Positions 4,886-6,912 of a stretch of DNA of 29,811 nucleotides are shown here, piece by piece. A model generated the notes under the pieces. The model had not been told where the DNA came from. It did no database searches and was given only the letters and a program-made list of their open reading frames with translations. The translations under genes and the position numbers were made by a program. Every line of letters starts with the position of its first letter. Position 1 is the stretch's first letter. Source of the DNA: a virus; IMG/VR virus record IMGVR_UViG_3300025674_000254, positions 1 through 29,811 of that record; one strand, written 5' to 3'.

Positions 4886-4923
4886 TTTTTAAAGAGCGAA
4901 GGTTTGGGGCAAATTCCCAAACC
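4886..4923 (-). promoter_or_regulatory. Leader hairpin plus boxA-like antitermination element
   Basis: In minus-strand RNA sense: arm GGTTTGGG (4916-4923), loop, arm CCCAAACC (4901-4908), then UU and CGCTCTTTAAAAA (4886-4898), matching the boxA core CGCTCTTTA of nut and rrn sites. The hairpin starts about 3 bases after the predicted transcription start. The second copy of this arrangement is at 6876-6912 on the other strand; both hairpins contain GGGAATTT. Confidence 0.55.
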
Positions 4924-4932
4924 AGAACCGAC

Positions 4933-4961
4933 AGTATACTAAATGTATAAGACTATGTCAA
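4933..4961 (-). promoter_or_regulatory. Strong sigma70 promoter
   Basis: Perfect TTGACA (4956-4961) and TATACT (4933-4938), spacer exactly 17 bp, on the minus strand. Preceded by the TAG found upstream of several other TTGAC boxes in this window. Confidence 0.85.
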
Positions 4962-5004
4962 CTATTCTTTTTTCTCTTTAATATTCAATTAGTTACGGAG
5001 GTAG

Positions 5005-5021
5005 TTTAGATCCGGTCTAAA
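5005..5021. promoter_or_regulatory. Palindromic operator-like site
   Basis: TTTAGA (5005-5010), 5 bases, TCTAAA (5016-5021). Half-sites resemble those of the 19-bp palindrome at 6756-6774. Located about 45 bp upstream of the -35 of the 4933-4961 promoter and just after the stop of the 5025-5285 gene. Confidence 0.45.
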
Positions 5022-5024
5022 AAC

Positions 5025-5285
5025 TTATTTGGCCCGTGAGCCGTGAAGCCAGTCCAGTAGAGCGCGTTTTTCGGTTCGTTCTTTTTTGTTTTTCTCTCGG
5101 CGTTCCACGGCCTCCGGATCGATGTAGTCGATCATCGCGTCGAGCTTAGTGAATATGGACTTGTAGAGCATTTGGTTGTCGTCGCTGAGTTTGATGTTGT
5201 CTCGGGGGAGTAGGTCGCGGATGAGTTTGAGTTCGTTGCGACTGAAGTCTCGGTGGTAGTTTTTTATTTTTTGATGGTACGCCAT
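5025..5285 (-). CDS. Hypothetical protein (86 aa)
   Basis: Starts MAYHQKIKNYHRDFSRNELK, then LIRDLLPRDNIKLSDDNQML, and ends with a highly charged helix (ERREKNKKERTEKRALLDWL). No known motif. CGGAGACAAACG before the ATG at 5283-5285 is the best ribosome binding site; the frame stays open 39 codons further upstream but there encodes only an Arg/Pro-rich shadow of the overlapping gene. Overlaps the preceding gene by 22 bases. Last gene of the 6665-5025 leftward operon. The stop region carries a copy of the heptad repeat (5031-5046). Confidence 0.65.
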   Translation of the reverse strand: MAYHQKIKNYHRDFSRNELKLIRDLLPRDNIKLSDDNQMLYKSIFTKLDAMIDYIDPEAVERREKNKKERTEKRALLDWLHGSRAK

Positions 5286-5440
5286 ACGTTTGTCTCCGAA
5301 ATGAATTGTTGTAACTGGACTGACGTTCGCCAGTTTCCCAGAGATTTCAGTTCGTGGCAATTTTCGTGCCATTGGTGGATTCCGTCTTCGAGGTCGTGGC
5401 ATTCGATGGTGAAGGTGTAGTCGATCAGGATTCTGTACAT
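5264..5440 (-). CDS. Hypothetical protein (58 aa)
   Basis: Reads MYRILIDYTFTIECHDLEDG then IHQWHENCHELKSLG and ends NVWRTIKK. Not recognised; beta-strand-like N-terminus, two Cys and several His. The ATG at 5438-5440 overlaps the last codons of the preceding gene; only a weak GGGTAG ribosome binding site, so expression is probably coupled. Confidence 0.6.
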   Translation of the reverse strand: MYRILIDYTFTIECHDLEDGIHQWHENCHELKSLGNWRTSVQLQQFISETNVWRTIKK

Positions 5441-5634
5441 CGTTCTACCCAAGTGCAGCAGTCGGTGTATATGGCGTTGGTTTTGCTTTGGACTTGATCC
5501 ATTTCGCAGTCGAAGCAGACGTAGTTGTCGGCGGGGCGGCATAGGTCGCAATTTGGTGTTGGTTTGAGCCAACTGATGTCGATTGCCTTGTAGTCTTTTG
5601 ACAAGGGTTTTCCATCGTAAACGAACTTTGTCAT
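5425..5634 (-). CDS. Cys-rich small protein, probable zinc binder (69 aa)
   Basis: Contains PNCDLCRPADNYVCFDC (C-x2-C then C-x2-C about 10 residues later), a treble-clef or zinc-ribbon-like spacing, and later CCTW and C near the end. No recognised family. Its ATG overlaps the TGA of the upstream gene (ATGA). Role probably nucleic-acid or protein binding, inferred only from the Cys pattern. Confidence 0.7.
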   Translation of the reverse strand: MTKFVYDGKPLSKDYKAIDISWLKPTPNCDLCRPADNYVCFDCEMDQVQSKTNAIYTDCCTWVERCTES

Positions 5635-5774
5635 TGGTCTTCTCGCATTTCTTCTAAAAATAATTCAGCGTCGGTGAGGTTATCGAAATCATAACTTCTG
5701 TCAACGCCATCGCTCACTTGGTATTCGATACGACCGTCGGGTAAAAAGCTATGGATGAGTATCCATTCGCTCAT
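5631..5774 (-). CDS. Hypothetical protein (47 aa)
   Basis: Reads MSEWILIHSFLPDGRIEYQV, then SDGVDRSYDFDNLTDAELFL and EEMREDQ. Looks like a small beta-then-alpha protein; no family recognised. Overlaps both neighbours (ATGA with the following gene; its start lies inside the end of the preceding one). Confidence 0.6.
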   Translation of the reverse strand: MSEWILIHSFLPDGRIEYQVSDGVDRSYDFDNLTDAELFLEEMREDQ

Positions 5775-5998
5775 TTGTGTGTCCTATCGAGGCAAGACTC
5801 ACAATACCAACCGCCATCGGAGCCTGTAAAGTACTCAAGGGTTTTTTCTTGGCAAGCGTCGCACTCGATGCTTTGGCACTCGGGGCATAGGTAGCCGATC
5901 TGTTTGCCATCGTCGGCGGGAACGCGGTTGACAAATAGTCCTGAACCGAATGCGGTATCTTCACCGCACTCGATACATAGGTCGCCGATGTCTTTCAT
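5771..5998 (-). CDS. Multi-CxxC zinc-finger-like protein (75 aa)
   Basis: Four C-x2-C pairs: CIEC (8-11), CPEC (38-41), CDAC (46-49) and CESC (67-70), the classical layout of two zinc-binding knuckle pairs. Central segment FTGSDGGWYCESCLDR resembles LIM/zinc-ribbon ends. Starts with ATGA overlap to the 5995-6414 gene. Could bind nucleic acid or a host protein; not assignable further. Confidence 0.72.
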   Translation of the reverse strand: MKDIGDLCIECGEDTAFGSGLFVNRVPADDGKQIGYLCPECQSIECDACQEKTLEYFTGSDGGWYCESCLDRTHK

Positions 5999-6414
5999 GC
6001 TTCCTCCTCTACAACAGGGAGGGTATATTCGGACAACTCTAAATCGTATAAATACTCAGATGAGACATAACCTTGTTGTTCATCGTCCCGCTCCCTTAAC
6101 TCTTTTATATTTTTGTTATGAAAGTTTTTTATTGCTATTTCTTCTGCTTCCGCTTCATTGTTTGCGATCACGCTTGTCGATATCCCTGTTTCAAGGTAAA
6201 GCGAAACGCAATACTGTTTTTTATCTAGGTTCATGCAACGTTCGTACAAGGCTTCGACCTGCTTAATTTCTTTTTGCATCGAGCTTTCGTCCCATTGGTC
6301 TGGGGACTCACGTTTTTTTAAGTCAATGCAATAAGTTTTGAGGCTATCGATGTGTGCCTCTAACGCAACACACAAGTGGTTATGCTCGAAAGGTGTTAGT
6401 TCTAGTTTTCTCAT
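5995..6414 (-). CDS. Hypothetical protein with charged helices (139 aa)
   Basis: Starts MRKLELTPFEHNHLCVALEA, contains a probable coiled coil (KEIKQVEALYERCMNLDKKQ) and a segment QYCVSLYLETGISTSVIANN followed by EAEAEEIAIKNF, which resembles a small beta/alpha unit seen in several phage hypotheticals. Start strongly supported by GGAGGATTCAAA before ATG; the same 16-base start context (GGAGGATTCAAAATGA) occurs at the upstream gene, suggesting duplication of the initiation region. Confidence 0.72.
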   Translation of the reverse strand: MRKLELTPFEHNHLCVALEAHIDSLKTYCIDLKKRESPDQWDESSMQKEIKQVEALYERCMNLDKKQYCVSLYLETGISTSVIANNEAEAEEIAIKNFHNKNIKELRERDDEQQGYVSSEYLYDLELSEYTLPVVEEEA

Positions 6415-6665
6415 TTTGAATCCTCCTCTGGAAGTCTCTCGATAAAAGACTCAAGGCCGTCTAAATATTCTTGGGCCTCACCGTCACCTCCATCGTCTTT
6501 GTCTTCGTCAAAGTGTGGAGTACCACTGCTACAAAAATTGACGAAGCTCGCACCTTCCCCGACTTGATAGCTTAGGTCGCCCGCATAATTAGATAAGTAA
6601 CTTACCATCTCTGAATAAACCTCTAAATCAAGTACTATTTTTCCCTCTAAATCTTTATCGTTCAT
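6411..6665 (-). CDS. Acidic hypothetical protein (84 aa)
   Basis: Reads MNDKDLEGKIVLDLEVYSEM, with VGEGASFVNFCSSGTPHFDE and a very acidic segment DEDKDDGGDGEAQEYLDGLE. Not recognised; overall strongly negative, so DNA mimicry is conceivable but unproven. First gene after the leftward promoter of the divergent control region; GGAGGATTCAAA gives a clear start. Confidence 0.72.
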   Translation of the reverse strand: MNDKDLEGKIVLDLEVYSEMVSYLSNYAGDLSYQVGEGASFVNFCSSGTPHFDEDKDDGGDGEAQEYLDGLESFIERLPEEDSK

Positions 6666-6693
6666 TTTGAATCCTCCGTTGAAAAGAACCTAG

Positions 6694-6723
6694 AGTCTAA
6701 TCCTAAGTATGCGATGATGTCAA
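6694..6723 (-). promoter_or_regulatory. Leftward promoter for 6665-5025 operon
   Basis: TTGACA (6718-6723) and TAGACT (6694-6699), spacer 18, on the minus strand. The -10 is part of the palindrome TAGAGTCTA (6691-6699), so a bound regulator would block it. Confidence 0.55.
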
Positions 6724-6755
6724 CTACTTTTATCGAGTTGGGTCGAATCGACGTT

Positions 6756-6774
6756 TTTTAGACTGAGTCTAAAA
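6756..6774. promoter_or_regulatory. 19-bp palindromic operator
   Basis: TTTTAGAC (6756-6763), TGA, GTCTAAAA (6767-6774): perfect 8-bp arms. Lies between the leftward and rightward promoters of the divergent region; related to the site at 5005-5021. A smaller palindrome GTCGA-A-TCGAC is beside it at 6742-6752. Confidence 0.65.
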
Positions 6775-6840
6775 TTCATGCTGCACCGCAACACAATTTA
6801 ACCCACCTAAGTTGTTGATTTAATTAAGAAAAATAAGTAG

Positions 6841-6872
6841 TTGACTTTATCCCATATATAGTCCAGACTATA
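6841..6872 (+). promoter_or_regulatory. Rightward promoter with palindromic operator
   Basis: TATAGTC (6857-6863), CA, GACTATA (6866-6872) is a perfect inverted repeat containing a good -10 (TATAGT). TTGACT at 6841-6846 is the only -35-like box but stands 10 bp from TATAGT or 17-20 bp from weaker -10 boxes, so the exact promoter is uncertain. The operator covers the likely start region. Confidence 0.5.
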
Positions 6873-6875
6873 GGG

Positions 6876-6912
6876 TGGAAGTGGGGAATTTACTTCCAAT
6901 GTTCTTTAACAA
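6876..6912 (+). promoter_or_regulatory. Leader hairpin plus boxA-like antitermination element
   Basis: Arm TGGAAGT (6876-6882), loop GGGGAATTT, arm ACTTCCA (6892-6898), one base, then TGTTCTTTAACAA (6900-6912), which matches the rrn boxA TGCTCTTTAACAA at 12 of 13 positions. Precedes an operon with two internal terminators. Second copy at 4886-4923, opposite strand. Confidence 0.62.

Follow-up and report, generated by a model that had tools for sequence, protein, structure and literature searches.

Hairpin-boxA leaders resembling the ribosomal RNA operon leader ahead of small phage genes

Two leaders and the units behind them

The DNA considered here, which we call the window, is a 29,811-base stretch from a single IMG/VR virus record (IMGVR_UViG_3300025674_000254). 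Its DNA polymerase is nearest, among named phages, to those of Phage DSL-LC04 (58%), 023Pt_psg01 (53%) and Pelagibacter phage HTVC023P (51%). An earlier note on this DNA had described twin leaders on opposite strands, and both are indeed present, at 4923-4887 on the minus strand and 6876-6911 on the plus strand; in each, a promoter is followed by a hairpin and then by a boxA element. The features of the two units, and of a possible third leader, are listed below, with distances in nucleotides (nt), proteins in amino acids (aa), ORF for open reading frame and SD for Shine-Dalgarno sequence.

6841..6869, plus strand: sigma70-like promoter of the plus leader, TTGACT-17-CAGACT, with a weak -10
6876..6898, plus strand: hairpin TGGAAGT...ACTTCCA, beginning at about the expected transcription start (abutting-hairpin shuffle p=0.001)
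6900..6911, plus strand: boxA TGTTCTTTAACA, which fits GYTCTTTAANA
6920..6926, plus strand: SD-like GGAAAGG, 8 nt past boxA
6933..7124, plus strand: ORF1, a 63-aa cargo gene of unassigned function, with homologues at loci L001-L007 and L009
7133..7151, plus strand: intrinsic terminator 8 nt past the ORF1 stop, with an interrupted U-tract (CCTTTTAATT)
7179..7565, plus strand: ORF2, 128 aa, kept behind ORF1 in L001-L003
7570..7585, plus strand: second intrinsic terminator, with an unbroken T run, retained in L001-L003 and followed there by a convergent gene
4961-4933, minus strand: sigma70 promoter of the minus leader, TTGACA-17-TATACT, an 11/12 match
4923-4901, minus strand: hairpin GGTTTGGG...CCCAAACC, close to where the 5' end is expected (abutting-hairpin shuffle p=0.004)
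4897-4887, minus strand: boxA GCTCTTTAAAA, which fits GYTCTTTAANA, with an SD 23 nt downstream
4596..4853, minus strand: 85-aa cargo gene of unassigned function, behind the minus leader
4575..4592, minus strand: intrinsic terminator 3 nt past the stop of the 85-aa gene
18618..18639, minus strand: possible third, variant leader, a GGCCA/TGGTC hairpin overlapping GGTCTTTAAACA, before a gene that starts at about 18590-18600 and upstream of replication genes

The plus promoter was not listed by a promoter scan that required 9 of 12 matches; in relatives it reads TTGACT or TTGATT, a 17-nt spacer, and TAGACT, TAAACT or TAAGCT. The sequence GYTCTTTAANA is the published gammaproteobacterial boxA consensus (PMC5725501). 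Searching both strands of the window finds two copies of it, each directly 3' of a leader hairpin (the mono-shuffle mean is 0.175), and a hairpin of folding energy dG<=-7.5 adjoins 172 of 8496 sampled window positions. Rfam returned no relevant family and no ribosomal RNA (rRNA) family for the window, with one sub-threshold match far off. Two other minus-strand leaders with partial TTCTTT motifs (4268, 6690) were set aside, since boxA is missing from their orthologues in L003, L008 and L009, and a loose scan for promoter, hairpin and TCTTT was discarded as too noisy.

Phage morons are extra small genes that carry their own promoter and terminator and differ between close relatives. Both window units have a promoter and terminator of their own around one gene, and in the plus unit a second gene follows. 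The product of ORF1 has no Pfam match above cut-off and no PHROGs match, and a protein search of viral contigs found no relative of the 85-aa product. Their predicted structures were not reliable enough to support a fold search (63-aa product: predicted local distance difference test, pLDDT, 76 and predicted template modelling score, pTM, 0.38; 85-aa product: pLDDT 58). Both terminators of the plus strand had been called strong; the one at 7570 has an unbroken T run, whereas that at 7133 is weaker than this because its U-tract is interrupted. L009 has a terminator at the place equivalent to 7133, with a different sequence.

Conservation and recurrence of the leader

Homologues of the 63-aa gene were found at seven viral loci, L001-L007, and L009 has a 66% relative. 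The leader accompanies a gene of this type in L001, L002, L003 and L009, and in L004-L007 the homologue lies in another setting, without the leader. Conversely, in L043 and L008 a leader stands ahead of an unrelated 123-aa gene; the leader of L043 recurs in L047 before a different gene. The minus slot shows the moron-like exchange of genes among close relatives: it holds the 85-aa gene in the window and the unrelated 123-aa gene, with a hairpin-boxA leader of its own, in L008, and it is empty in L003 and L009.

The earlier note had argued for a conserved structure from the fact that the two window hairpins differ in sequence and are each paired. The relatives bear this out. Between the window and L003, and again between the window and L008, five of the seven hairpin pairs are changed on both sides with pairing kept, while GTTCTTTAACAAT is unvarying across an alignment of six leaders. 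Elsewhere, the share of pairs changed on both sides ranges from none of six (L048/L169) through two of eight (L046/L051) to five of six (L067/L186). Hairpin loops also vary among the relatives; the GGGAATTT that the two window hairpins share at the 5' arm and loop, proposed earlier as part of the element, is therefore a coincidence and lies outside it. Arms and loops were too variable for a single alignment. Because they vary while pairing is kept and boxA is fixed, the pattern fits a constraint on the presence of the hairpin, not on its sequence, and a sequence constraint on boxA. The leaders at L046 3693 (minus strand) and L051 1819 (plus strand) have two successive hairpins ahead of boxA; the both-side changes between them fall in the upstream hairpin, and the boxA-adjacent hairpin is identical.

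To follow the leader further, we searched with the pattern TATAAT-N18..45-GTTCTTTAACAA-N1..14-GGAG, which combines promoter, boxA and SD and does not require a hairpin. It matched 43 viral loci, representing 21 distinct leaders; a single scramble of boxA with the same composition gave 1 viral locus. In a collection of bacterial and archaeal genomes there were 30 matches of scattered taxonomy. We then asked whether the stretch between the -10 and boxA alone folds into a hairpin abutting boxA (shuffle p<0.05). This was so in 13/21 distinct viral leaders as against 1/30 genome matches, and in 10/17 viral leaders after homologous ones (L048/L083/L169/L188 and L067/L186) were merged by eye. This test replaced a comparison of folding energy between boxA-plus-SD matches outside ORFs (n=41, mean -9.9) and SD-only controls (n=111, mean -8.5), in which the contrast was weak. 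The sole hairpin-positive genome match, L206 1236-1585 on a Xenorhabdus hominickii contig, has promoter, hairpin, GTTCTTTAACAA, GGAG, a short frame of 55 codons that opens at a later GTG rather than at the SD, and a terminator behind; it is perhaps a prophage remnant.

These counts bear on a simpler explanation, namely that the leader is merely a stabilising 5' hairpin with an A/U-rich, translation-friendly spacer whose likeness to boxA is incidental. Known 5' stabilising hairpins sit at about the transcription start, and the hairpins here begin 4-9 nt past the -10 box in 20/26 leaders, hence at about that position too; moreover, the predicted fold of the window's plus leader pairs boxA pyrimidines with the SD region. 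However, the exact 12-mer turns up in 21 distinct leaders and its composition-matched scramble in 1, and the two window copies of boxA both fit the 11-nt consensus despite differing from one another. We consider this explanation very unlikely.

Individual cases show the same recurrence, which extends to phages unrelated to one another. All nine homologues that a protein search returned for one cargo protein have GTTCTTTAACAA just upstream, although these are close relatives only (87-100% identical). The 19.8-kb contig G018 has four hairpin-boxA sites whose hairpins all differ, and a recognisable -10 precedes three of the four; in the cultured Stenotrophomonas phage DLP_5 the layout stands ahead of gp148, with one mismatch in boxA. 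There is no boxA ahead of the matching gene in Brevundimonas phage MaInes, and a 12-kb stretch of Citromicrobium phage RXM, which encodes a 34% relative of a cargo protein, contains no boxA match of 10/12. No hairpin-boxA leader was recognised in DSL-LC04 or in the first 50 kb of HTVC023P and of 023Pt_psg01. At least 120 stretches were among the matches listed, and those from L040 to L134 were analysed (72 distinct). At L274 97-2300, one strand has two boxA-like sites, the first ahead of a 99-aa gene and the second, which reads GTTCTTTTACAA, ahead of a 250-aa gene that has a terminator past its stop.

The typical cassette consists of a promoter, a hairpin, boxA, an SD, a single small gene of unassigned function and a terminator. 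Of 26 distinct cargo genes, 15 have an intrinsic terminator no more than 40 nt past the stop, 14 of them at 2-11 nt, compared with 38/540 small SD-bearing ORFs of the same loci, some of which are not real genes. Stricter controls gave 11/106 (p about 1e-6) and, for genes with a promoter, 2/19 (p 0.0017). The 26 cargo genes still include a few homologous pairs (L048/L083, L073/L124) and eleven leaders added by hand; the automatically found cassettes alone gave 10/17 against 2/19 controls (p 0.004). Thirty-two distinct leader candidates were listed, and the terminator count omits five in which no gene could be recognised (L107 plus strand, L141, L181, L182, L192) and also L206. Cargo proteins are mostly small and mostly unlike each other. 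When ten were scanned at E<=0.01, nine had no PHROGs match and nine no Pfam match; the product of L131 has weak matches to both, the Pfam one below the curated cut-off. L131, L155 and L065 have a further same-strand frame that overlaps or lies at most 50 nt away.

The terminators also allow an assessment of the processive antitermination proposed in the earlier note, according to which RNA polymerase modified by the leader, with or without a phage protein, would read past 7157 and 7591. ORF2 starts 27 nt past the stem of the 7133 terminator, and no promoter intervenes, as this proposal would have it, and similar layouts occur in L051, L107, DLP_5, L009 and, with a 43-codon frame, L075. In addition, the possible third leader stands ahead of replication genes, and the rrn-type Nus complex with SuhB can lower intrinsic termination in vitro (PMC6614801). 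Against this, promoterless same-strand genes directly behind cassette terminators are not enriched, at 4/15 versus 15/100 for other terminated genes (p=0.27); we counted genes of at least 45 codons that left no room for a promoter, a limit that the frame of L075 falls just under, and L009, which has such a gene, lay outside the set counted. By the same criteria, 11/15 terminated cassettes have no such follower. The HNH gene behind the second terminator, which had served as an argument for readthrough, is found behind it in 0/3 of L001, L002 and L003, which retain the terminator and have a convergent gene there instead; the HNH gene thus looks inserted. A phage partner protein encoded by the cargo genes is also disfavoured, as these are mostly unrelated to one another and L004-L007 carry the 63-aa homologue without the leader. 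The part of the earlier interpretation that is supported is a conserved leader in which, as in rrn operons, a boxB-like hairpin precedes boxA; readthrough, the argument from the second terminator and the partner protein are not supported, and we regard antitermination in the form first proposed as quite unlikely.

Antitermination as such may occur, above all at the variant leader 18639-18618 ahead of the replication genes. Its hairpin has a shuffle p of 0.034, it does not fit GYTCTTTAANA, and its orthologues in L270 and L275 read GGTCTTTAACAA. The surrounding promoter region (18760-18560, minus strand) contains, besides the variant hairpin-boxA, an inverted repeat TTGACA...TTTGTCAA around the -10, and is a possible operator plus leader.

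Likeness to the rRNA leader and possible function

Ahead of 16S, the E. coli rrnB operon has TATTAT, the P2 -10, then a hairpin GCCGCT/AGCGGC, AC, and TGCTCTTTAACAATTTA. The phage leaders share with it the promoter, a hairpin near the transcript start, a gap of about 2 nt and the same boxA sequence. They differ in being phage-borne, in often heading a short terminated unit, and in running into an SD and a protein gene; thus the boxA consensus and a hairpin directly 5' of it behind a promoter are present, and boxC and rRNA downstream are not. Phage HK022 put sites, which are two hairpins without boxA, offer another parallel, being RNA elements at the start of early transcripts that act without a phage protein, and the cassettes resemble morons, although a boxA-hairpin leader is no part of how morons are defined. 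In the suhB leader of Enterobacteriaceae, boxA likewise lies a few nt ahead of the SD of a protein gene, but in E. coli no hairpin abuts it and its known effect is repression. The nutL and nutR sites of lambda with N, and those of the mEpimmI phages (PMC11893012), show a phage exploiting boxA and host Nus factors. However, nut places boxA before a boxB whose conserved loop is read by an N-like protein, whereas here the hairpin comes first and its loop and arms vary freely. No N-like family was detected among the window proteins scanned, which are part of those of a record that may be a fragment, or among the cargo proteins scanned. In rRNA signals too, boxB precedes boxA, opposite to lambda nut (PMC6614801). 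Because of this order, the similar gap and the same boxA as in rrnB, we refer to the phage element as an rrn-leader mimic.

We suggest, giving it about an even chance, that the leaders are miniature copies of the rRNA-operon leader, placed on compact phage cassettes, through which host Nus factors aid expression. Host NusB-S10, known to bind boxA, would bind it here as the 5' end of the transcript leaves RNA polymerase and, with NusA, NusG and SuhB, would form an elongation complex of the rrn type right at the beginning of the message. The foreign gene might then be transcribed fast and in a Rho-resistant manner with no need of a phage antiterminator, the hairpin perhaps capping the 5' end or acting as a spacer regardless of its sequence. 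The leader would act from just ahead of the ribosome-binding site of a moron-like cassette, usually one small gene and an intrinsic terminator. The binding of NusB-S10, the effect on transcription and its positive sign are predicted from sequence likeness. They are consistent with reports that the rrn-type complex with SuhB delays Rho-dependent termination (PMC6614801) and that boxA and Nus factors raise elongation rate and resistance to guanosine tetraphosphate (ppGpp) (PMC4807359). An anti-Rho effect is nevertheless not a given, because rRNA itself has been argued to resist Rho without Nus factors, whose main role there would be ribosome maturation (PMC4807359).

Several observations weigh against the proposed rRNA-leader mimic. 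Among the distinct viral leaders, 8/21 have no significant hairpin, and 13/43 viral loci are copies of one hairpin-less sequence that also occurs in an archaeal assembly (L226). No terminator was found by our criteria for 11/26 cargo genes, and since most cassettes are short, protection from Rho answers no obvious need. boxA was scored against a gammaproteobacterial consensus, which may not be the boxA of the phages' own hosts. The hairpin does not raise the predicted accessibility of boxA (mean 0.50 versus 0.46 with the region shuffled; higher in 17/28 leaders), so that the predicted folds do not support the idea that it frees boxA. Finally, boxA near an SD represses suhB (PMC5725501).

This last point is the core of the strongest rival, suhB-type control, in which the Nus complex on a boxA beside the SD would block translation, Rho would end transcription, and the cassette would stay closed as long as Nus factors are available and open once they become scarce. 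In E. coli suhB, 6 nt separate boxA from the SD, repression survives a spacing of up to 100 nt, and a boxA ahead of a ParE-like toxin gene of C. koseri has also been taken as a Nus target (all PMC5725501); the corresponding distance in the window is 8 nt for the plus leader but 23 nt for the minus one. On the other hand, the phage leaders have the rrn layout with the abutting hairpin that suhB lacks, and keeping small phage genes under standing repression by a growing host would seem a poor bargain. We consider such control unlikely, although sequence alone cannot tell it apart from the rrn-leader mimic. Whether a boxA ahead of an SD, with an rrn-like hairpin before it, helps or hinders expression is the question that these leaders raise.

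A further rival is that abundant short boxA RNAs would serve as decoys, drawing NusB, S10 and SuhB off the host rrn operons. High-level nutL RNA does titrate Nus factors and lower rRNA (PMC4807359), and many of the transcripts would be short, with a hairpin at one end and a terminator at the other. But the leaders that we followed also have an SD and a gene, and a 12-mer search allowing one mismatch found a single match in 11/20 records; a decoy role seems to us highly improbable.

Returning to the rrn-leader mimic, a wider reading, which we offer tentatively as a possibility, is that many virulent phages rely on this portable element as the standard signal for expressing their host-takeover cassettes, making up a phage Nus regulon without a phage antiterminator. 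The expression of small ORFan genes would then be tied to the ribosome-making machinery of the cell. If boxA recruits Nus factors here, phage use of the Nus complex would extend well beyond the lambdoid N system, and the combination of hairpin, GYTCTTTAANA, SD, small gene and terminator could serve as a tag to locate phage accessory genes that are still uncharacterised. Both Nus-dependent phages that have nut sites (mEpimmI, PMC11893012) and boxA ahead of host genes (PMC5725501) are already known; in the literature searched, which left most subscription journals outside it, we came across no description of phage gene cassettes headed by hairpin-boxA leaders in the rrn order.

Other features of the window

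The HNH-like gene at 7606-8487, missing from the equivalent place in L001-L003, consists of about fifteen degenerate repeats, mostly of 45 nt (15 aa, KYYEENKEK), followed by a C-terminal HNH-like segment whose Pfam match is below cut-off. The stretch between 4300 and 4570 is AT-rich and non-coding, and the words GTTACA/TGTAAC recur in it; it is a candidate origin or regulatory region, and a similar stretch occupies the corresponding place in L003, L008 and L009. At the end of the record (2-707), low-complexity repeats, in frames reading RGPRFAV... and DREPRTSDREPRT..., lie beside a small open frame.

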